A DNA stretch of 64,000 nucleotides. Origin: Nesterenkonia sp. Act20 (GTDB lineage Bacteria > Actinomycetota > Actinomycetes > Actinomycetales > Micrococcaceae). Every line of letters begins with the position of its first letter. Positions within the stretch are counted from its first letter, which is position 1. Below, one piece after another: positions 42,444 through 56,694 of the stretch. The stretch is taken from the NCBI RefSeq assembly GCF_019173455.1, contig NZ_JADPQH010000001.1:992001-1056000 (forward strand), given 5' to 3'. The notes beneath the pieces are model-generated. The model worked only from the letters and a program-made list of their open reading frames with translations, was not told the DNA's origin and ran no database searches. The position numbers and the translations under genes were made by a program.

Positions 42444-43025
42444 ATGACTGGACTTAAAATTGGATACGCCCGCGTGTCGACCACCGGACAAGACCTCACT
42501 GCCCAACGCGAAGGCCTCATCAACCTCGGGGTCGACGCCGATCAGGTCTACGTCGACCACGGACTCACCGGCACCAACCGCACCCGACCCGGGCTCCGCG
42601 AAGCCCTCGCAGCCGTCCGCTCCGGCGACACCCTGGTCGTGACGAAGCTCGACCGCCTTGCTCGATCCCTGCCTGATGCTAGGAACATCGCCGATGAACT
42701 CACCACGAAGGGCGTGACTTTGAGTATCGGCGGCAGTCTCTATGATCCCAACGATGCGGTGGGCCGACTGCTCTTCAACGTCCTGGGCATGGTGGCGGAA
42801 TTCGAGGCCGACCTCATCCGGGCTCGAACTCGAGAGGGCATGGCGATTGCGAAATCGAAAGGGCGTCTGCGCGGGAAGCAGCCCAAGCTCTCCCCCTCGA
42901 AGCGGAAACACCTTCTCGCGACCCATAAAGCAGGAACGCATACCCAGTCTGAGCTAGCAGAGTTGTTCGATGTCTCCCGCGCGACCGTCTACCGGGAGCT
43001 CCAGCGGGCGCAGCCAGAGGCCTAA
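42444..43025 (+). CDS. Pin-type serine invertase/resolvase
   Basis: 193 residues. Small serine recombinase with the catalytic Ser in IGYARVSTTGQDLTAQ, KLDRLARSLPDARNI, the LLFNVLGMVAEFEADLIRARTREGM dimer helix and a C-terminal HTH (QSELAELFDVSRATVYREL). GAGGG precedes the ATG. It resembles transposon resolvases and DNA invertases such as Gin/Hin. No transposase is next to it, so the substrate is unknown; dispersed inverted repeats nearby are candidates. Confidence 0.92.
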   Translation: MTGLKIGYARVSTTGQDLTAQREGLINLGVDADQVYVDHGLTGTNRTRPGLREALAAVRSGDTLVVTKLDRLARSLPDARNIADELTTKGVTLSIGGSLYDPNDAVGRLLFNVLGMVAEFEADLIRARTREGMAIAKSKGRLRGKQPKLSPSKRKHLLATHKAGTHTQSELAELFDVSRATVYRELQRAQPEA

Positions 43026-43144: not shown

Positions 43145-43594
43145 CTACGCCGACACGGTCGCCAGCGAAGTTGCGGCGACCTTAGTGTCGGTCAACTGCG
43201 GAAGCAGTAGCGAAAGGGCTCGGTGAGCCAGATCGGCCTCGAGATACAGGTAGCTCTGGGGCGGATGGTTGATGCCTAGATCTTCGGCCAGACACAGAGG
43301 AGTCGAAGCCGTATATGCCATTTTCACTCGGATTCCAGTGCCTACGGAGTGCCCACGGTAATACTTCATGAGATCCCTGTAGGCGATCCCACCCACCTCT
43401 TTGAAAGCCCCCCAAAGCTCTCGTGGTGACTCTGACACTTGTTCCTCTACGCTGAAGACACCAACGACTCTTCGAACGGGGGCCGTGGCGTAGATCAACA
43501 CATGGGTGACATCTCCAGCGACAGGCCGCTTCCGGAACTCCACGCGCTTTTGCCCTGACAGGATCTGCTCTGCGTAAACGGGATGGATAGACAT
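43145..43594 (-). CDS. ASCH/PUA-like domain protein
   Basis: 149 residues from ATG 43594, which overlaps the stop of the upstream gene (TGATG) and so fixes the start; the in-frame extension to 43630 has only a TTG. The fold signature is ALMSIHPVYAEQILSGQKRVEFRKRP with THVLIYATAPVRRVVGVF, typical of ASCH (PUA-like, RNA-binding) proteins. ASCH proteins can hydrolyse modified nucleosides or bind RNA. Obligatory coupling to the PIN-GNAT gene suggests it is the second component of a two-gene system. Confidence 0.8.
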   Translation of the reverse strand: MSIHPVYAEQILSGQKRVEFRKRPVAGDVTHVLIYATAPVRRVVGVFSVEEQVSESPRELWGAFKEVGGIAYRDLMKYYRGHSVGTGIRVKMAYTASTPLCLAEDLGINHPPQSYLYLEADLAHRALSLLLPQLTDTKVAATSLATVSA

Positions 43595-45063
43595 CAGAGC
43601 GACGCGTCCAGTTGGTGCCGTATCCAGCAAGTTCCCTCCTCTGAGAATTTGGCGATGGATTGAGGCGCGGTGGCCATACCTGCGTGAGTCGCGAAATCCG
43701 CCATAGACCAGATCTTGTCCACACGACGATCGAAACGGAATCGTACACTCAACACAGAACTCAAATCACATAGCTTCTGAATGTCACGGTAAGAGTAGAC
43801 CGTTCGCCCTGTCACCGCTTCCGCAATCTCCGAAGGATCATCAGAACGGTCCACAGATTCCACGACCCCCACCGCCGTGGGACCCGTCAACCCTTTTCCT
43901 CCGGTGCGGATAAAGACTAGAAGATCCCCAGGGACAAGTCGCTTTATCCCGGACCTGGACAAGTACGCCTTCCGAATAGCGTTGCCGCATGGTTCGTTGG
44001 GCAAGATCGCTTGCTGCTCTTCGATGTCGGGGAACAGCAGGCGATGGAACTGCGGCTGAATAGGTACCGCATAGGCGCGCTCCACACGAACGACTCCTGG
44101 CCCGTAACGCTTAGCTACCTCTAACGGGTGGAGCGTAGCCAAATTCGCACCGGGGACAAGATCCTTGACGAAGAGAATTTCACCCTTCTCGTTTCTGTCC
44201 TCCAATTCGGAGAAACCGAACCTGGGCAACCAGTTCCGAAGTGGCTCCTTGTCCTCAAGCGCACTGAGGTACAGCTGCTGAAAATGCTTGTGCCGTGCGT
44301 GATCGATGACAGCACGGAGTAGCAGCTCCCCACGCCGGTTCCCGGCTTGGCCATCCTCCACCTTGAACGTGCACACCTTGAGAACGGAGGATCCAAGTCC
44401 GTGAGGGTGTTGGTCAAGCTCAGGTTTTAGCACAGCTAGACCTTCAAAAGACTCTTCATCCCCAAGTGCGAGGCAGGTACGTCCACCCGCCACGACTTTA
44501 CTTCGCCACCAGTTCTCGAAACCCAAGTAGTCCGCTTTTAATGTGTCGAAGAAGGGGCTCGATAGATTCAACCTATAGGCCTCCACCTGATTCGCGTCGG
44601 GAACATGGTCGAGGCCCGGATCGAGGAGATTCGAGAAGAAGTCCAGCGCATCTTGGATGGAAAGCGTAGGGGCAAGATCAGCTCGTTCGGCCCGTCGCCG
44701 CATCCGTCGGTCTTCGGTGACTAGCCATGAGCTCACTCCACTGGCATGGGCAGAAAGAACTTCCATATCAGCGCAGTCCTGGACCCTTGGCGCCCAGGGG
44801 AAGACCTCAGTGACATCCGGATTGAGTGGAACTCCTTCGAGAACCAGATAATGCTTGAGACGGTCGTAACGACGCTGTTGCCTCGCTCCTTCCACCCGGT
44901 CGAAGTCGCTTACTGTTCCATGGCTTACTGTCGGGATGAAGCCCAGGCGTAAGACGAGGTCGATGAGCTGGTGTGCGGCTTCGGCGTTGATGTTGTCGAC
45001 ATCTTCGTCGTTGACATGAGCAATAACGATATTCGTATCGAGGAGCACTTTGGGGGCAGTCAC
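43594..45063 (-). CDS. PIN - GNAT - PUA-like fusion protein
   Basis: 489 residues (GTG 45063, with AGGAGG 9 nt upstream). Residues 1-150 form a PIN nuclease-like domain: KVLLDTNIVIAHVND with the first acidic residue, then DCADMEVLSAHASG and WLVTEDRRMRRRAE with further acidic positions. About 215-295 is a GNAT acetyltransferase (VLKVCTFKVEDGQAGNRRGE ... WLPRFGFSELEDRNEKGE). The C-terminal ~150 residues look PUA/EVE-like (IKRLVPGDLLVFIRTGGKG). The combination of an RNase fold, an acetyltransferase and an RNA-binding module suggests action on tRNA or a toxin-like role. No such three-domain family is known to me by name. Confidence 0.78.
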   Translation of the reverse strand: MTAPKVLLDTNIVIAHVNDEDVDNINAEAAHQLIDLVLRLGFIPTVSHGTVSDFDRVEGARQQRRYDRLKHYLVLEGVPLNPDVTEVFPWAPRVQDCADMEVLSAHASGVSSWLVTEDRRMRRRAERADLAPTLSIQDALDFFSNLLDPGLDHVPDANQVEAYRLNLSSPFFDTLKADYLGFENWWRSKVVAGGRTCLALGDEESFEGLAVLKPELDQHPHGLGSSVLKVCTFKVEDGQAGNRRGELLLRAVIDHARHKHFQQLYLSALEDKEPLRNWLPRFGFSELEDRNEKGEILFVKDLVPGANLATLHPLEVAKRYGPGVVRVERAYAVPIQPQFHRLLFPDIEEQQAILPNEPCGNAIRKAYLSRSGIKRLVPGDLLVFIRTGGKGLTGPTAVGVVESVDRSDDPSEIAEAVTGRTVYSYRDIQKLCDLSSVLSVRFRFDRRVDKIWSMADFATHAGMATAPQSIAKFSEEGTCWIRHQLDASL

Positions 45064-45371
45064 GGTCAGCACCCTCCTAACACATCCATCCTAATGCGGC
45101 AGACTATGAGACACGTGGGTGCTTTGGACATAAATAAAAATTCAACTTCCTATCCCATAAACTCAGCGGTTCCTGCGAGAGCCAGAAAGAGCTTCGACTC
45201 CAGGGGCCGACTACAGGTCTTCAAATTTTCGGCGGTGCGTCCGGCGCGTGTTCTCGCGTGGTCGAGGCCGATCGTTACCGACCTATGAACGCTGAATGGT
45301 GGCTACGCAATCCGTGGCAGGGCAGGGCCCACGGTCACCACAGACCAAGGCCCTTGTGAAACTATCGACTG
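45064..45371. other. Divergent promoter region
   Basis: 308 bp between the PIN-GNAT gene (minus) and the HEPN gene (plus). The central part near 45130-45170 is AT-rich. No repeat or RNA gene is recognised. Confidence 0.35.
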
Positions 45372-46235
45372 ATGGGAATAGTGCACTACCCCGAGTACCG
45401 GGAACACCAACGTCAGCGGGTGCAAACCAATGACACCATGATGGGTCTACTCGCTGGGTCGAAGCTCGCGTCGCAGACGCTGACGCTCACCAGCGGTTCC
45501 AACCTGCTCATGAGCGAAATCTTTCCTGGCGTTGAGCACGTCCGTCGGTTCAATCTGAGAACAGACAAAGCGCGGGAAGTCCTTGACGAAGCCGAGACAT
45601 TGCTTGGAGTTCTTGCCGTTCCACAGGTGATTGCTTTGCAAGAGCACTTGCTAGTCGGAATGCTCGAGCTCCTGGAGCAGAATCTGACGACCCTTGGCAA
45701 TATTTCGAGGAACGTTAGGGCTGTCAATGCTCATGAAGCAATTCAATCGGCGACTGGTGGACGTTTCAGCACAGACTCATTGGATCTATTTCATCTGGTT
45801 AGGCTGGCAAGAAACACCCACATACACAACGGAGCGAAGGCGAGTCCAGCCCTTGTTAACGCTGTCGCATCAACCGACGCACGGGCTCTTGAGGTGTGGG
45901 AGACCATCACAAAGACCAGCTTGCCTGCCTACCAGGTGGGTGATGAAGTACGACTTGGTCTTTCGGAACTTATCGGCATCCTGGCCGTCACGAAGCGTCT
46001 CGCCGAAGAGGCTAACCGCCTATTGCAACGAGCACTGCCGAGAAGCACCTGGGCAGACATCGCGGTACTGGACTGGTTAGACAACCGGACGCCAGGCAAC
46101 GCCTCCCAGCAAAGCAGACAGCTACTCGGGATCTCGAGAAGGCACTACGGACCCTTAAGCCTCACGAAAGTCGAACTAGAAGCTGCCAAAACCCGAACGG
46201 GTGTAACTCAAAACAAAGAGGAGCTGACCTCTTAG
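45372..46235 (+). CDS. HEPN-domain protein
   Basis: 287 residues, alpha-helical. LFHLVRLARNTHIHNGAKAS carries Arg-x4-His (R-NTHI-H), the catalytic pattern of HEPN ribonucleases. Codon use is visibly less GC-rich than the core genes, suggesting recent acquisition. HEPN nucleases often cut tRNA in the anticodon loop. The gene converges on the permuted tRNA-Asn gene, and its stop codon lies inside the hairpin that appears to terminate that RNA. No partner antitoxin is recognised. Confidence 0.7.
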   Translation: MGIVHYPEYREHQRQRVQTNDTMMGLLAGSKLASQTLTLTSGSNLLMSEIFPGVEHVRRFNLRTDKAREVLDEAETLLGVLAVPQVIALQEHLLVGMLELLEQNLTTLGNISRNVRAVNAHEAIQSATGGRFSTDSLDLFHLVRLARNTHIHNGAKASPALVNAVASTDARALEVWETITKTSLPAYQVGDEVRLGLSELIGILAVTKRLAEEANRLLQRALPRSTWADIAVLDWLDNRTPGNASQQSRQLLGISRRHYGPLSLTKVELEAAKTRTGVTQNKEELTS

Positions 46236-46248
46236 GTCAACTCCTCTT
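46216..46248 (-). terminator. Hairpin terminator downstream of the permuted tRNA
   Basis: AAGAGGAGCTGACCT (46216-46230) pairs with AGGTCAACTCCTCTT (46234-46248), 15 positions with one mismatch and a 3-nt loop. It contains the HEPN stop codon. Read on the minus strand it starts 6 nt after the 5' tRNA half and is followed by TTTTG, so it best serves the tRNA transcript; on the plus strand no T-tract follows. Confidence 0.75.
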
Positions 46249-46253
46249 CGCAA

Positions 46254-46327
46254 AACAGCCGGTGGCTTTACCAATTAAGCTACGTCTCCAATGGAGCCGC
46301 CAGGACTCGAACCCAGATCAACCGGTT
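46254..46327 (-). tRNA. Permuted tRNA-Asn(GTT), 3' half before 5' half
   Basis: On the minus strand, 46327-46292 encodes a 3' half: AA, CCGGT, 4-nt variable loop, T-arm CTGGG-TTCGAGT-CCTGG, acceptor CGGCTCC and A73. Two bases later, 46289-46254 encodes a 5' half: acceptor GGAGACG, TA, D-arm GCTT-AATTGGTA-AAGC, C, ACCGG, CTGTT. Joined at the anticodon loop they give a 72-nt cloverleaf. The anticodon stem is perfect (ACCGG/CCGGT), the loop is CTGTTAA (anticodon GTT, the canonical Asn loop), and the acceptor has 6 of 7 pairs (one A:G mismatch). No CCA is encoded. Next to the break, CTGT/ACAG and GAAG/CTTC can pair, forming a bulge-helix-bulge-like structure. Confidence 0.8.
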
Positions 46328-46770
46328 CTGTGAAGTGCTTGGTCATGAACCAGCGTGCCCCTAGGTCAGACACTTCTCGAACTGAGCCTAATCTAACCGT
46401 GGGGCGCTAGTTGACGCAAGCGTCATCATCAGGCAGACGTCCGAGTTCCCCCGGGTGCGTGGTGGGTCGACCTCGACTTCCTAAAGCTGCACGGAACCAG
46501 GTTAGTCCGGGGTCCACGACGCGCCACGGAAAACTGCAGGAACCTTGCCATCTCCGCTACCCCTGGAGTAGGCACCAAACAGTCTTCTAGGTGTCTCAAA
46601 AACCTACTAATGTCTCAGACACGCCCTAATGGTCCCGCGACGATTACTGCCGTATTTGCCCAGGCCGACAGATTGACTGAGGAGTTGCATGCGCCTAGAT
46701 TCTACGCAACAAGGGAATGTCAGTCAGGGCCCCCAGCCCCTACAGGACACACAGTAACGATTCTTCAGTC
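46328..46770. other. Leader region of the permuted tRNA
   Basis: 443 bp upstream (minus strand) of the tRNA. It may hold its promoter and leader RNA. A plus-strand frame at 46610-46810 begins MSQTRPNGPATITAVFAQAD but loses protein character after about 30 codons; not called. If splicing used a group I intron, its 3' part would lie here, but I could not identify the conserved core. Confidence 0.35.
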
Positions 46771-46815
46771 CCGAGCTAGTCAGCAGCCAGGAACGCATGT
46801 TGCTGACTAGCTCGG
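46771..46815. repeat. 15-bp perfect inverted repeat
   Basis: CCGAGCTAGTCAGCA (46771-46785) and TGCTGACTAGCTCGG (46801-46815) form a perfect stem with a 15-nt loop containing the ATG of a small open frame (46797). No T-tract follows, so it is not an ordinary terminator. It may be an RNA hairpin masking that start or a protein-binding site. Confidence 0.75.
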
Positions 46816-46916
46816 AGGAAGAGCGACAGATCGACGAAGACTTTAATCAGGTTCCCGAAGACGCCGTTCAAGATGAGGTCGACCATCTAGCAAGGCGGGT
46901 GGTTTCCATGATCTAA
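46797..46916 (+). CDS. 39-residue acidic peptide
   Basis: MLLTSSEEERQIDEDF followed by VDHLARRVVSM, an acidic, helix-prone peptide starting in the loop of the inverted repeat. There is no ribosome site upstream, so it is either translated by an unusual route or is the tail of a decayed gene. Short antitoxins can look like this, but there is no further support. Confidence 0.3.
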   Translation: MLLTSSEEERQIDEDFNQVPEDAVQDEVDHLARRVVSMI

Positions 46917-47005
46917 CGCCAAAGGAAAGATCAGCTCTGGCCGGCCGCTCCACTGGAGGCCTCACCGTATTACCCCTAAACTGCCGGCAATGGTCTAGCG
47001 CATGC

Positions 47006-47085
47006 GGTAGTTGAGGTCTACCACCCGGCGCAGATCCGAGTCTTAAAGCGGGTAGAGGCGCTTCTTCACTCCTCGGATCCGCCGG
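47006..47085. ncRNA. Structured-RNA candidate (nested hairpins)
   Basis: In the gene-free stretch 46917-47145: GGTAG/CTACC hairpin (47006-47022), then a long stem CCGGCG-CA-GATCCGAG (47025-47040) with CTCGGATC-CGCCGG (47072-47085), 14 bp with a 2-nt bulge. This encloses AAGCG/CGCTT (47046-47063) with a GGTAGAGG-like loop. The loop GGTAG word recurs in the first hairpin. It sits between the permuted tRNA and a nuclease gene. Strand and function unknown. Confidence 0.5.
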
Positions 47086-47145
47086 AATAACGCCCAGTGT
47101 GACAGACCGCCTATATTACTCCTGCTTGGAACCATCAGCTGGAAT

Positions 47146-47763
47146 CTATTTCCACGGAAAAGGAACAGCTGCGGGACATTCCCGTCGGAGCTCGCCTAGG
47201 TCTGCATCGATAGCCTGCCTGGTGTCAGATGGGAGAGTAGCGTATTCCCGCCTAAACCGCTCGAACCCAGCCAGGCTCATCGCCCCAGGGGATATTCCGA
47301 TGTTGTCCTCGGAGTCGTAGAACGAGTAGCGCAACTCGCACATGTCAGGGAGAACTACATCGAAGTAGTGATCAATATTGACAGACGAGAGCTGCACGAA
47401 ATAAGGGATCCGGACAACGTTATATCCGAGCGACCTGTAAAACGCGTCAGCCTCCTGGTCCTTAATAATGCGCTTCAGGTCCTGATAATGCTGGCGCCCG
47501 TCGAACTCGACGATTAAGGATTCAGACTCCGAGCGGTAGTCCGGCATGAAGCTTCGACGCTTATCCGTACCCCCTCGATCAATCTGAACTTCTTTTGGAA
47601 TACGAGCGTCATGCACCCATTCGTCAACCGGCACGGATGGAAAGATGGCGTCAAGATACTCCAGGAGCGGAGTGTGCCGATCAGGGTTGAAGAACTTTTG
47701 AGATGAACTCTCACGCAGATATTTCCAGCGAGCCTGGTACACAGCATCCAGATCGACAGTCAT
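47146..47763 (-). CDS. DUF559/PD-(D/E)XK-like nuclease domain protein
   Basis: 205 residues from ATG 47763 (GGGAGGGATC upstream). The centre reads FMPDYRSESESLIVEFDGRQHYQD followed by ADAFYRSLGYNVVRIPYF, the D...E-x-D/Q...pattern of Vsr/DUF559-type endonuclease folds. Family members often accompany restriction or mobile elements. The next 47764-47909 spacer has degenerate CGATAGCT repeats. Confidence 0.65.
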   Translation of the reverse strand: MTVDLDAVYQARWKYLRESSSQKFFNPDRHTPLLEYLDAIFPSVPVDEWVHDARIPKEVQIDRGGTDKRRSFMPDYRSESESLIVEFDGRQHYQDLKRIIKDQEADAFYRSLGYNVVRIPYFVQLSSVNIDHYFDVVLPDMCELRYSFYDSEDNIGISPGAMSLAGFERFRREYATLPSDTRQAIDADLGELRRECPAAVPFPWK

Positions 47764-47813
47764 GAGATCCCTCCCGAGTTGTATTAGTCGCAACATAGCA
47801 GAGAGGCGAACTC

Positions 47814-47876
47814 AGATAGCCCGATAGCTCGATAGCTCCATAGATGGCCCGATAGATAGATGGCTCGATTGCTAGA
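47814..47876. repeat. Degenerate CGATAGCT short repeats
   Basis: A run of GATAGC/GATAGA/CTCGAT words, including GATAGCCCGATAGCTCGATA and GGCCCGATAGATAGATGGCT, sits between the divergent nuclease genes. It likely contains the promoter of the NYN gene; protein-binding repeats are possible. Confidence 0.55.
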
Positions 47877-47909
47877 CGAAGTGATCAATTCATCAGTCAT
47901 GCTTGAGAG

Positions 47910-48602
47910 ATGGGAAAACCGACGGCGATCGTCTACGTCGACGGGTTCAATCTGTACAAGGGACAGCTAGAGAAGAGGCCCGAGAACAAGTGGCTCGACC
48001 TGGTCGCGCTCTTCGACGACGTCCTCCACGACTTCGATGTGCAGCATGTCCACTACTTCACGGCACGCATCAAGGGGAAGATGAACCCGGAGGATCCGCA
48101 GGCGCCCTACCGACAAGACGCCTATATCCGGGCCCTGAAGACGCTTGATCGCCTCACCGTCCACGACGACTCTCTCTTCGCCGTGCACAACGGGCATGCC
48201 CGTGAGTACGTCGACGGCAAGGAGCAGCCTCCGCTGACCTACCACCACGTCTACAAGGTCCAGGAGAAGGGCTCGGACGTGAAGCTCGCGACGCAGCTGC
48301 TCATGGACTCACTCGACGAGCTCGCCCAGACCTACGTCGTGATCTCCTCCGACTCAGACCTGGCACACCCGATCAAGGTGGCCAAGGAGAGGTTCGGGGT
48401 CCGGGTGGGAGCGCTGTATCCGCGGGATGCGAGGACCAAGCTCTACGATCAGGCCGGCGTCGACTTCAGCCTGTATCTGCACCCGTCCTACGCGGAGCGC
48501 AACCAGCTTCCCGACGTCGTCCAGGCGACGAGGAAGCCGGTGCATCGGCCCACGTCGTGGCAAAAAGCAAGGCCCCACACGAGTGCGGGGCCTTGGGCCT
48601 GA
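47910..48602 (+). CDS. NYN-domain (PIN-like) nuclease
   Basis: 230 residues. NYN signature: AIVYVDGFNLYKGQLEKRP with the first Asp, KGSDVKLATQLLMDSL with the second, and VVISSDSDLAHPIKVAKERFGVRV with the third acidic cluster; the metal site is complete. NYN proteins cut RNA. The last codons read through the terminator hairpin of the convergent restriction gene, so the natural C-terminus may end earlier in related proteins. It is 1.6 kb from the permuted tRNA. Confidence 0.88.
   Translation: MGKPTAIVYVDGFNLYKGQLEKRPENKWLDLVALFDDVLHDFDVQHVHYFTARIKGKMNPEDPQAPYRQDAYIRALKTLDRLTVHDDSLFAVHNGHAREYVDGKEQPPLTYHHVYKVQEKGSDVKLATQLLMDSLDELAQTYVVISSDSDLAHPIKVAKERFGVRVGALYPRDARTKLYDQAGVDFSLYLHPSYAERNQLPDVVQATRKPVHRPTSWQKARPHTSAGPWA
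48568..48595 (-). terminator. Terminator of the MmeI-like gene
   Basis: CAAGGCCCC (48568-48576) and GGGGCCTTG (48587-48595) form a 9-bp stem. On the minus strand it is followed by CTTTTTG, the expected U-tract. It overlaps the 3' end of the convergent NYN gene. Confidence 0.8.
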
Positions 48603-48725
48603 TCCAGAGGAACAGGGGTTGTGCCTTCACAGTAGCACTTGGACACCCGTCTTCTCCAGGGAGGACAGGGTAGGACAGGTCTGGACCGGCAAGTCATGCA
48701 CTTGGTCCTCGGTCGACCCGCCTTT

Positions 48726-51500
48726 CTAGAATGCGGCGTAGCGCTTGAGCAGGACCTCCAGACGCTCTGTGTTGTCGCTGAGCCTGCGACGGACACCAAA
48801 AGATCTATCGACGACCGTGTCCAACTCGCGATGCGCCTTCCGTAGCGGGTCGGGCATGGCCAAGGGATCGTAGAGGTCCGCAAGCGTGGCGCCCTCGTAC
48901 CGGCTCCTGGTGTCAGCGATGGCGTGCCAGGCGTCGGTCAGGTCTTCTTCGAGGTCATGGGATACGTTCGGCCACGGAATAGGGAAGTAGGAGAGTGCCG
49001 GCGAGAGCGCGAAGTCTGATTTGAGACGACCAGCAAACGTGCTGATCCATGCCATGAACATGGACGATTGCAGCAGTGCGGCGTGCCAGGGTTGAGCCTT
49101 TGGGAAGATGATGAGCTTATTACCGGCGATGACCTCCGGACCATACATCCGTCCGGGTATCCATTCGCGGTTCGATGAGGAAACTTCTGGCAGAGCGAAA
49201 TAGCTAGTATCTGGCTGACGGTCTTGCGTGAACGCTCTCGAATTATTGAACTCACGTACAGACCGAGTCTTGGAAGCGCTACGCGACTTTTCAACGCCCT
49301 CGATTCGGTGTCGCAGGATGGCTGAGGAACGCAGGTCCAAAGGGTTCGCGTCCTTCAGCCAGAGACACCACCGGCGCTCCTGTTCTTGCAGCATGTCCCG
49401 CCCTTGCACGAAGCGTCGCAAATACGGACTCGCGTGAGGGTCCGCGGCCACCTCGTCGTACTCGCCCTCATCAACGAGCAGATGCCCTCCATCGGTGGGC
49501 TGACTTCCTTTATGAGCGTTTGGCATACCCGCCGTAGCGGGTTCACGCAGTTTGCTAGGAACTACGTTGGGGCCCTCTGCGAGATAGAAGTTGATCCGCT
49601 TAGCCGACTTCTCAATAGGCTCGCCCGCAATGTGGCTGTATGTGAATAGTCGGCGTCGTCGGTCAGGCCGTTCTGTCGCCGAGAAACCGACGATCACACA
49701 GTGGACTGAGGCCGCTCCCGGGGCTTCTGATGTCCATCTGAAGGTCTGATGCGCGAAGTCGATCTCATACCCGTTGCGCTCAAGCAGGGGCACCATGGTG
49801 CGGGCCTGCTCACCTTGGGTGAGAGAGCTGGTCGAGACAAAGCCGGCGCGGGCTGATCTGGTCTGTTTGAGATAGTCCATCGTCTTCGCGTACCAGCAGG
49901 CGACGTAGTCGAGGCGACCAGGACGAAGTCCTGTGCTGTCGACCAGGGTGAAGATCTCGCGGTTGTCTTCCTGCTGTTCTCTGCTCATGCCGTTCATTCC
50001 GATGAACGGTGGGTTCCCCAGGACAACCAGAGTGTCCGTGGGAGCAACGATGTCGTTCCAGTCGGTGCGCAGCGCATTGCCTGTATGGATGGTCTCGACC
50101 TTGTCCAGAGGCAGCAACTCAGGGGCAGTCCCGAGGCGGGCTTGCATCTCCTGGTTCGCCTGGTGCTCCACCAGGTGCAATGCCGTGTTGGCGATGCGGG
50201 CGGGCCAGTCCTCCAGTTCGATCCCGTGGAAGTTCCTGACCCGAACACTGACCTGGTCGCCCAGGAAGAACAAGCCCTGGTCCAGCACCGAGGTCGACTT
50301 GCGACCCTGATCGAGTTCTTGGATCCGTTCAATGATGCGCAGCTCCAGTGCCCGCATCTCGCGGTAGGCGATGATCAGGAAGTTTCCGCAGCCGCAGGCC
50401 GGGTCGAGGAACTGCATCTCACCGAGCCGGCTGCGCATGTTCCGCAGCCCCTGTACGGAGTCCTTCTTCGCTTCGAACTCAGCCTTGAGCTCATCAAGGA
50501 ACAGCGGTCCGATGACCCGAAGGATGTTCCTCTCGGTGGTGTAGTGCGCTCCCAAGGCACGCCTAGCGGCCTTGTCCTTGACCGCCTGGAAGAGGGAACC
50601 GAAGATCGCGGGGCTGATGGCTGACCAGTTGAAGTAGCAGGCCTCGATGAGGTGGGTTCGCATGTCGGCGTCGAAGAAGGGGATCTCGACCACTTCTTCG
50701 AATAGGCCGCCGTTGACGTACGGGAACCTGGCCAAGAGCCCGGTGATGTTCTTCTGTCGCTTCTCCACGGGAGTGCGCAGCACCTGGAAGAGGAGATTCA
50801 TCTGGGAACCGAGGTCTCCACCATCCTCAGAGGTGCGGTTCTCCAGGAACTCTAGGAAGAGGTCTCGTTCGCCCCATAGGGCCGTGTCGTCGGCGTAGAG
50901 CATGAACAGTGATCGGACCAGGAACACGCTGGCCGAGTGGTCGTCATACCCAGAGTCGGACAGTCCTTCATAGAGCGAGGCCATGAGCTGGGCCGCCTTG
51001 ACCGACGCGGCCTCCCGCTCCTCGAAGGAGAGGACCCGTTGGCCATACCCAGCCAGGAACGACAGCTTGTCGGCGTGCTCATGAAAGTCTTGGATGTCCC
51101 ACTCTGCGGCGTGGGTGTCGCTGCCTTCTTTGAGGTTGAGCAGACGGAAGGTCTTGAAGTCGCTTGTGAGCACCCAACCGGGGAACTCTGCGTCTGGAAG
51201 CCCCTGGAGGTAATCCAGGGCCTGTTCCTCGGCCTTGGCGAGACTCTTCCCTTCAGATTTCATCTCGATCGCGAGGATCCCCGGGACCAGCGCGTCGATG
51301 TAGCCCTGTGCCCCGGTGGAGGATCTCTGAGCGCGACGCTCATAGAGCGCGGCGCGAGACCCCGAGAGACCGTAGACGGAGAGGAGATCTCGCACGAACA
51401 TCTGAGCCTCTTGCCGCTCGTCCCCGGCAGCGTCCTTCCAGTTCAAGACGAACTGGTCAGCTTGGCGGTAGATCTCCTCGAACGAACGGGCTTTATCCAT
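48726..51500 (-). CDS. MmeI-like type IIL restriction-modification enzyme
   Basis: 924 residues combining nuclease and methyltransferase in one chain. The N-terminal PD-(D/E)XK region has IDALVPGILAIEMKSEGKSL (D...E-x-K). A helical connector leads to the N6-adenine methyltransferase: motif I FLDPACGCGNFLIIAYREM, catalytic motif NPPF in LVVLGNPPFIGMN. The C-terminal ~300 residues should be the target-recognition domain (SNREWIPGRMYGPEVIAGNK). Such enzymes methylate one strand and cut nearby unmodified DNA. Full length for the family. The neighbouring HTH gene may be its regulator. Confidence 0.92.
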   Translation of the reverse strand: MDKARSFEEIYRQADQFVLNWKDAAGDERQEAQMFVRDLLSVYGLSGSRAALYERRAQRSSTGAQGYIDALVPGILAIEMKSEGKSLAKAEEQALDYLQGLPDAEFPGWVLTSDFKTFRLLNLKEGSDTHAAEWDIQDFHEHADKLSFLAGYGQRVLSFEEREAASVKAAQLMASLYEGLSDSGYDDHSASVFLVRSLFMLYADDTALWGERDLFLEFLENRTSEDGGDLGSQMNLLFQVLRTPVEKRQKNITGLLARFPYVNGGLFEEVVEIPFFDADMRTHLIEACYFNWSAISPAIFGSLFQAVKDKAARRALGAHYTTERNILRVIGPLFLDELKAEFEAKKDSVQGLRNMRSRLGEMQFLDPACGCGNFLIIAYREMRALELRIIERIQELDQGRKSTSVLDQGLFFLGDQVSVRVRNFHGIELEDWPARIANTALHLVEHQANQEMQARLGTAPELLPLDKVETIHTGNALRTDWNDIVAPTDTLVVLGNPPFIGMNGMSREQQEDNREIFTLVDSTGLRPGRLDYVACWYAKTMDYLKQTRSARAGFVSTSSLTQGEQARTMVPLLERNGYEIDFAHQTFRWTSEAPGAASVHCVIVGFSATERPDRRRRLFTYSHIAGEPIEKSAKRINFYLAEGPNVVPSKLREPATAGMPNAHKGSQPTDGGHLLVDEGEYDEVAADPHASPYLRRFVQGRDMLQEQERRWCLWLKDANPLDLRSSAILRHRIEGVEKSRSASKTRSVREFNNSRAFTQDRQPDTSYFALPEVSSSNREWIPGRMYGPEVIAGNKLIIFPKAQPWHAALLQSSMFMAWISTFAGRLKSDFALSPALSYFPIPWPNVSHDLEEDLTDAWHAIADTRSRYEGATLADLYDPLAMPDPLRKAHRELDTVVDRSFGVRRRLSDNTERLEVLLKRYAAF

Positions 51501-51602
51501 CCGTTCAGGCTACACACAGGCAACGTCATCATCGCGCAGTGGTCCCCACCGAGCCAATCCTCGGACGATTCAAACAATTCATCCCGTCTCAGACGAGCCC
51601 CG

Positions 51603-52025
51603 CTACGGCTCTCGGCGCGCGATCTCCTCACGCAGCTCGTCGGTGGAGAACACGGCCAGCACCTGACGTTCCAGTGCGTCGTAGCCGACAGCTCGGGCTT
51701 TATGCTCGGCAACAGTCAACTGGTCCTCAGATGCCTCCGTAAGCATGTCCAGGACATCGGTGCGGTTGACCTCACGTAACTGCCCAGGAGATATCCGCAA
51801 CGCGCTTGCAAGCCTCGCCAGCGTATCCGGGTGGGGCACCGCTCGACGCACCTCTCCCTGGCGGTATCGGAACCCCTGCATCGCGATGTGGATGGTTGCG
51901 GTCGACAATCCGGTGAGCTCAGCGAGCTCGGGCACCGTGTGCCTAGATTCCTCGTAGCAACGCCGCAGTAACTTGGATTCACCGGGGACCTGATCGTCGG
52001 GCAATGGAGTCTTCTTGGTGGACAT
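51603..52025 (-). CDS. HTH regulator upstream of the restriction gene
   Basis: 140 residues, GAGGTC ribosome site before ATG 52025. The N-terminal HTH (RCYEESRHTVPELAELTGLSTATIHIAMQGFRYRQGEVR) and HPDTLARLASALRISPGQLREV resemble XRE regulators. A C-terminal helix follows (DALERQVLAVFSTDELREEI). It precedes the MmeI-like gene by about 100 bp in the same direction and could act as a control protein. Confidence 0.75.
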   Translation of the reverse strand: MSTKKTPLPDDQVPGESKLLRRCYEESRHTVPELAELTGLSTATIHIAMQGFRYRQGEVRRAVPHPDTLARLASALRISPGQLREVNRTDVLDMLTEASEDQLTVAEHKARAVGYDALERQVLAVFSTDELREEIARREP

Positions 52026-56620: not shown

Positions 56621-56694
56621 GGGGCGTTAGCTCAGTTGGTTAGAGCAGAGGACTCATAATCCTTTTGTCCTGGGTTCAAGTCCCAGACGCCCTA
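56621..56694 (+). tRNA. tRNA-Met (CAT)
   Basis: Complete cloverleaf: acceptor GGGGCGT/ACGCCCT (G1:U72 wobble), D-arm GCTC...GAGC, anticodon stem GAGGA/TCCTT with loop CTCATAA, T-arm CTGGG-TTCAAGT-CCCAG, and A73. CCA is not encoded. The CAT anticodon also fits Ile2 (lysidine); elongator Met is preferred because of the standard 1-72 pairing and no other Ile2 hallmarks. Confidence 0.9.

Follow-up and report, generated by a model that had tools for sequence, protein, structure and literature searches.

A permuted tRNA-like module within a Y-RNA-like small RNA encoded beside a HEPN-like protein in Actinomycetota

Introduction

Bacterial Y RNAs carry a tRNA-like domain whose role is still discussed as open in the literature cited here. 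In algae and archaea, circularly permuted tRNA genes are joined at a bulge-helix-bulge by the splicing endonuclease to give working tRNAs (PMC3978253). In AbiF/AbiD, a HEPN-type toxin is neutralized by the noncoding RNA abiF (PMC12373285). Here a locus of Nesterenkonia sp. Act20 is compared with these systems. It lies in a stretch of 64,000 nucleotides (nt), called the window (assembly GCF_019173455.1, contig NZ_JADPQH010000001.1, positions 992,001-1,056,000, forward strand), where a sequence resembling a scrambled tRNA occupies positions 46254-46327 of the minus strand, next to the gene of a HEPN-like protein of 287 amino acids (aa). A preliminary description took this sequence for a circularly permuted tRNA-Asn gene. 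The evidence is strong that it is instead the tRNA-mimic module of a small RNA of about 130 nt and not a tRNA gene, and the identity of this RNA and its partnership with the HEPN-like protein are proposed with high confidence.

The permuted tRNA-like module

By inspection, the minus strand at 46254-46327 reads as the 3' half of a tRNA, then TT, then the 5' half. Rejoined, the 72 nt are called tRNA-Asn(gtt) by ARAGORN, with an acceptor stem of 6/7 pairs, a D stem of 4, an anticodon stem of 5/5 and a T stem of 5 bp that includes two wobbles. The swapped order of the halves, their 2-nt separation and the tRNA-like arms were thus correctly recognized in the preliminary description. In place, ARAGORN calls no tRNA at 46254-46327, the sole tRNA called in the window being a tRNA-Met at 56621.

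A strict scanner for permuted tRNAs passes a single place in the window, whereas 12 Markov-1 resamples of the window contain no such place. Because of this result and the recurrence of a permuted tRNA-like sequence in 23 of 23 homologous loci, the pattern is real and exceeds chance, as had been surmised from the window alone. Run on all of the homologous loci except L057, the same scanner passes only the window, L034 and L041. The 23 loci comprise the window, three plasmid records, 18 genome contigs and one further genome from a draw of 396; relatives are referred to by locus number where they must be told apart.

The RNA and its fold

The module forms part of a Y-RNA-like noncoding RNA. The features of the RNA and of the adjoining gene are listed below; the coordinates of the module's sub-parts were converted by hand from columns of a 17-RNA alignment.

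45372-46235, plus strand: HEPN-like protein of 287 aa, convergent with the RNA, which lies at the gene's 3' end
45810-45827, plus strand: codons of RNTHIH, the HEPN RN-x3-H motif (R147, N148, H152)
46218-46246, minus strand: terminator-like hairpin followed by a U-rich tract, from the sequence; includes the stop codon of the convergent gene
46249-46380, minus strand: Y-RNA-like noncoding RNA (5' domain plus permuted tRNA-mimic module), extent of covariance model R1 (100.7 bits, E 1.5e-24)
46254-46327, minus strand: permuted tRNA-mimic module, from ARAGORN, alignment and covariation
46259-46263, minus strand: module, 5' strand of the anticodon stem
46265-46280, minus strand: module, D arm
46283-46299, minus strand: module, closed acceptor hairpin
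46300-46316, minus strand: module, T arm
46321-46325, minus strand: module, 3' strand of the anticodon stem
46332-46376, minus strand: 5' domain, with a closing helix (46371-46376 with 46332-46337) around two hairpins
46339-46353, minus strand: second hairpin of the 5' domain, loop TCATG
46390-46395, minus strand: probable -10 box TAGATT (TANNNT in most relatives)
46414-46419, minus strand: possible -35 box TTGCGT

From its 5' end, the RNA consists of the 5' domain, in which a 6-bp helix encloses two hairpins, then a linker that often reads ACAGAA, and finally the permuted module. Model R1 was built from 17 of the 23 RNAs, the window RNA among them, with L043, L045, L048, L050, L054 and L055 left out of its alignment. 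It recovers all 23 RNAs at 56-110 bits; in the same search, single ordinary tRNA loci reach at most 23.5 bits and tandem tRNA-Asn pairs elsewhere up to 60. Pairing holds in 88.0% of the cells of the R1 alignment, and both sides have changed in 28 of its 34 pairs, so that the compensatory changes the preliminary description proposed to look for in the arms of relatives are present; helices 1-3 of the 5' domain show such changes in 14 of 14 pairs. For covariation the RNAs score 0.443; shuffles score 0.170, with none of 500 reaching the observed value, and slid controls at most 0.174. The alignment was fitted to the model, and these counts are therefore biased towards it. The fold of the RNA is supported by covariation.

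The loop of the second 5' hairpin is constrained as well: among rows with letters, a C (21 of 21) is followed by A or G (21 of 21) and preceded by U (19 of 21). The U-C-R hairpin, which in L034 and L051 is taken by ARAGORN for an anticodon arm, may mimic such an arm or serve as a contact for a protein.

Within 45 nt upstream of the RNA, 20 of the 23 loci have a TANNNT box; the corresponding counts are 6.7 ± 2.0 for shuffled sequences and 1.4 ± 1.2 for random 45-mers drawn from the loci. The 60 nt downstream of the window RNA have a fold energy of -29.0 kcal/mol, and values of -25 kcal/mol or lower are found in 10 of the 23 loci, window included, a raw count without a shuffle control. The RNA would be transcribed independently.

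Linkage to a HEPN-like protein

All 23 loci carry the RNA beside the HEPN-like gene, no more than about 90 nt from its end. The spacing between gene and RNA runs from -29 to +85 nt, measured from the end of the protein match in the frameshifted L050 and L053. The two are convergent in 21 loci and on the same strand in L045 and L048, and linkage in both orientations argues for a functional RNA-protein pair. The named relatives, all Actinomycetota, belong to Actinoplanes, Leifsonia, Kribbella, Lentzea, Tessaracoccus, Crossiella, Herbiconiux, Actinokineospora, Nonomuraea, Pseudofrankia, Streptomyces, Acidimicrobiia, Mycolicibacterium and Rhodococcus. Distribution is patchy, with one occurrence among the 295 genomes of a draw from the family.

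The RNAs of L045 (5845-5937, plus strand) and L048 (5799-5917, plus strand) have no evident 5' domain and a T loop reading TGCGA. They are possibly a minimal form that is driven differently.

The HEPN nuclease class includes anticodon nucleases. The 287-aa protein has no match in Pfam. It does have the R-polar-x3-H signature of the HEPN superfamily, in the form RN-x3-H, and in the protein alignment, which leaves out the frameshifted gene of L053, N148 and H152 are kept in 22 of 22 sequences and R147 in 21 of 22. On the strength of this motif the protein is probably a HEPN RNase, and its substrate would most likely be tRNA. A new kind of system for toxin action or phage defence, under the control of RNA, is suggested by the presence of such an RNA beside a predicted RNA-cutting protein.

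Evidence against a tRNA gene

The most direct alternative is the one first proposed, that of a circularly permuted tRNA-Asn gene spliced at 36/37 to a working tRNA. The rejoined window sequence does fold as tRNA-Asn(gtt), and position 33 is U in 19 of the 23 loci. When several joins are tried (204 constructs), at least one of them yields an ARAGORN tRNA call of some kind in 18 of 23 loci, a lenient test that does not discriminate alone. Conservation of the anticodon, in contrast, is lacking. The triplet at the canonical join takes 12 different forms in the 23 loci, with TTC the commonest (7) and GTT confined to the window, and five are stop-codon anticodons (TCA twice, CTA twice and TTA); the assignment of the anticodon stem behind these counts is heuristic, misplacing the T arm in L035 and giving only 3/5 pairs in L051 and L057. 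The acceptor segment, which forms 6/7 pairs in the window, varies in length, with 10 nt in L044 and 4 nt in L053, whose protein gene is frameshifted. An ordinary tRNA-Asn is already present in the genome, is identical to the mimic in 47 of 77 aligned columns, and has G as its discriminator where the mimic has A. Neither the tRNA-splicing endonuclease (PF01974) nor the RtcB ligase (PF01139) has a match in the genome, the assembly of which is 97% complete.

The join itself gives no better support. The preliminary description saw a bulge-helix-bulge-like structure at the ends of the halves, with GAAG and CTTC paired; however, this CTTC pairs not with the downstream GAAG but with an upstream GAAG(TG) in helix 1, where 6 of 6 pairs have changed on both sides, and because it belongs to this covarying helix the bulge-helix-bulge is not a conserved structure. 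The order of the halves is common to this feature and to algal and archaeal circularly permuted tRNA genes, but the feature differs from them in having no conserved bulge-helix-bulge and no endonuclease match in its genome. Anticodon, acceptor, enzyme and homologue evidence together lead to the rejection of a permuted tRNA gene, which is considered very improbable: the permuted order and the tRNA-like arms of the preliminary description stand, while a tRNA-Asn gene rejoined by splicing does not.

The ordinary tRNA-Asn gene (L088), the only match to the ordinary tRNA-Asn pattern in the genome, lies about 130 bases past the end of the window and about 18 kb from the mimic. This closeness is probably a coincidence.

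Another possibility is an ordinary-order tRNA-like cloverleaf, with the two 5' hairpins in the roles of D arm and anticodon arm, combined with the T arm and the acceptor 3' strand. ARAGORN calls a tRNA-Ala(cgc) in this order in L034 and L051, two of 22 relatives, and the Rfam tRNA model gives the L051 cloverleaf 26.6 bits, below its cut-off of 29. The preliminary description had named an ordinary-order tRNA with decayed flanks in relatives as grounds for rejection, and ARAGORN calls none at the RNA in the other 20 of the 22 relatives fetched, with L039 giving a tmRNA call that covers the RNA and extends beyond it. Moreover, pairing of the 5' strand with the acceptor 3' strand never exceeds 51.2% of cells in the registers tried, whereas helix 1 is paired in 89.6%. 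The cloverleaf is not kept across the family, and this reading is rejected as extremely improbable.

No more probable is a decayed remnant, either two tandem tRNA genes that have lost their outer halves or the scar of an att site. R1 does hit tandem tRNA-Asn genes in one genus: L060-L063 and L065-L069 each contain two near-identical tRNA-Asn genes, 4-5 nt apart, that score like permuted tRNAs. Such pairs are a trap for permuted-tRNA scans. A remnant is contradicted by covariation, the same architecture with compensatory changes being found in 23 loci, and the RNA has promoter-like boxes and a 5' domain of its own.

Relation to Y RNAs

At the gathering threshold, Rfam has no match at the feature. 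In E-value mode, the window RNA matches the Y RNA family YrlA (RF02553) over 46231-46345 with 33.8 bits (E 7e-6), the cut-off being 69. Ten of 12 loci scanned score 24-39 bits, L038 reaching 39.4, and L033 and L034 give no match; all are below the cut-off. The Ro60-linked RNAs of L064, L072 and L073 miss it as well, with best scores of 40-56 bits. The likeness to YrlA lies in the same permuted module of the Rfam consensus, with a T arm, a closed acceptor hairpin with a short loop, a D arm and an outward equivalent of the anticodon stem. This layout of YrlA is read from Rfam alignments; the word 'permuted' does not occur in the passages of the cited papers used here.

Of 396 Actinomycetota genomes searched with R1, 70 contain matches, from which 30 loci were fetched. 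Two of these are HEPN-linked (L058, L059) and 28 have no HEPN-like gene; in 25 of the latter ARAGORN finds adjacent ordinary tRNAs, and the other three (L064, L072, L073) lie beside TROVE/Ro60 genes. As a model built from HEPN-linked RNAs finds Ro60-linked RNAs, the two groups share the module. The 5' ends of the mechanically listed TROVE reading frames of L072 and L073 extend into the RNA, and the true gene start is probably downstream. L064 carries two tandem Y-RNA-like modules (1480-1850) directly upstream of its TROVE gene. TROVE/Ro60 has no match in the genome of Nesterenkonia sp. Act20; it occurs somewhere in 5 of 18 relatives' genomes and was not found in 13, a count that leaves aside the genome of L038 and the plasmid hosts.

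Genomic context

Neighbours in the window include an MmeI-like enzyme, an NYN protein and a PIN protein. Among the relatives, the RNA-protein pair is found near a Septu-like PtuA beside an HNH gene (L038), an OLD/GajA-type ATPase (L044), a GajB-like helicase (L042), a TIR protein (L051) and Pycsar genes (L033). PADLOC models matched four of ten chosen neighbours (in four of eight loci), and six had no match.

At 46700-52025 the window encodes a DUF559 protein, an NYN-domain protein, the MmeI-like restriction-modification enzyme and an HTH regulator, and at 42444-43025 a serine resolvase. A 492-aa PIN protein, whose relatives are annotated GNAT, adjoins an ASCH-domain protein at 43145-45072 on the minus strand. 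The first gene of this pair matches 33 plasmid records, and ASCH adjoins it in some relatives. The PIN and ASCH genes are a candidate RNA-targeting defence or toxin pair.

Proposed function

The RNA and the protein would form a two-component system in which an independently transcribed Y-RNA sibling, bound as a tRNA mimic, restrains a HEPN tRNase, a reading that is somewhat favoured here. It builds on the covarying fold, the constant association with the protein, the promoter-like boxes, the HEPN-type motif and the defence-gene neighbours in several loci, all of them observed; transcription of the RNA, RNase activity, tRNA as the substrate, direct binding, inhibition of the nuclease and a phage trigger are inferred. 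The 287-aa protein would be a HEPN endoribonuclease that cuts tRNAs and is bound directly by the RNA. The tRNA-shaped module, with its acceptor end sealed and no closed anticodon loop, would fill the tRNA site as a poor substrate, and the three-way 5' domain would give specificity. Loss, cleavage or displacement of the RNA by competitors during phage infection would free the nuclease, which would then damage tRNAs and stop growth. Inhibition by mimicry as such, with the RNA as the antitoxin of a tRNA-cutting HEPN enzyme, is the simplest interpretation and has roughly even chances.

Alternatively, the RNA may be an adaptor that tethers the HEPN-like protein to another machine and so steers RNA decay, much as a Y RNA tethers PNPase to Ro60 in RYPER. 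In YrlA, the shared module is the PNPase-binding effector domain (PMC8394870), and the separate 5' domain of the RNA described here could hold the protein. On the other side, the conserved HEPN-type RNase motif and the defence genes near several loci suggest catalysis by the partner itself, and this genome has no Ro60 match. The adaptor is accordingly thought unlikely. More doubtful still is an activator or bait, by which the RNA turns the HEPN enzyme on, or lures phage enzymes that cut or modify tRNAs so that infection triggers the enzyme. Retention of tRNA-like arms after loss of tRNA functions would fit such a role, and YrlA itself is a substrate of DusA and TruB (PMC8394870). This proposal overlaps with the inhibitor model.

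Returning to the restrained nuclease, the locus could exemplify a new class of RNA-controlled toxin or defence systems in Actinomycetota, in which a HEPN tRNA-cutting enzyme is checked by a dedicated circularly permuted tRNA-mimic RNA. This extension is tentative, with chances a little short of even. In such a class, the 5' domain of the RNA may even present a separate hairpin, with a U-C-R loop, that resembles an anticodon arm. Since the mimic is common to both, Y RNAs and the RNAs described here may descend from one tRNA decoy, with the decoying of tRNases as the ancestral function and the Ro60 partnership as a separate specialization.

Through its position in the genome, the permuted tRNA mimic is linked here with a predicted HEPN nuclease, the two making up a compact two-gene unit. 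Should the RNA restrain the nuclease, it would represent a new form of RNA antitoxin and show concretely what the mimic is able to do. Apparent permuted tRNAs in bacteria should be compared with Y-RNA-like RNAs first. No earlier account of a HEPN-linked Y-like RNA or of a bacterial permuted tRNA gene appeared in the titles and abstract openings searched, which mostly do not cover subscription papers and preprints.

Comparison with known systems

Like AbiF/AbiD, the locus pairs a HEPN-motif protein with an adjacent structured noncoding RNA. It differs in that the 287-aa protein has no Abi_2 match in Pfam and in that the RNA is downstream, mostly convergent, single-copy and tRNA-shaped. The family RF03085 is absent among the Rfam matches listed for the scanned loci. 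Type III toxin-antitoxin systems likewise combine an RNase-like gene and an adjacent structured RNA, as do 23 of 23 loci here, where the RNase nature of the protein rests on the HEPN motif. In contrast to the tandem-repeat RNA of those systems, which lies upstream and is co-transcribed, one R1 match is present per locus, downstream of the gene and convergent with it in 21 of 23.

The Salmonella prophage protein Gifsy-1 HepS (PDB 9oij) is also a HEPN protein, with no relation to the 287-aa protein seen at the sequence level; in its setting, rsr and rtcBA accompany the gene of the Y RNA. HepS is presumably the product of the HEPN gene STM14_3211 named in PMC9879122.

The closest likeness to a described RNA is that to YrlA, from which the HEPN-linked RNAs differ in three respects. 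Their neighbour is a HEPN-like protein where YrlA has Ro60, and covariation supports a local three-way structure for their 5' domain. Less surely, clear pairing between the 5' and 3' ends is missing: the z-score of the end duplex averages +0.10 over the 23 RNAs (range -1.61 to +1.31; window -0.38), against -1.24, -1.73 and -2.45 in the three Ro60-linked RNAs that are the only control, a range overlapped by 3 of the 23. The covariation of the local 5' domain makes a basal stem of the two ends less likely. The RNA is here called Y-RNA-like, as distinct from a Y RNA proper: its Y-RNA module is joined to a 5' domain of another kind and has a new partner.
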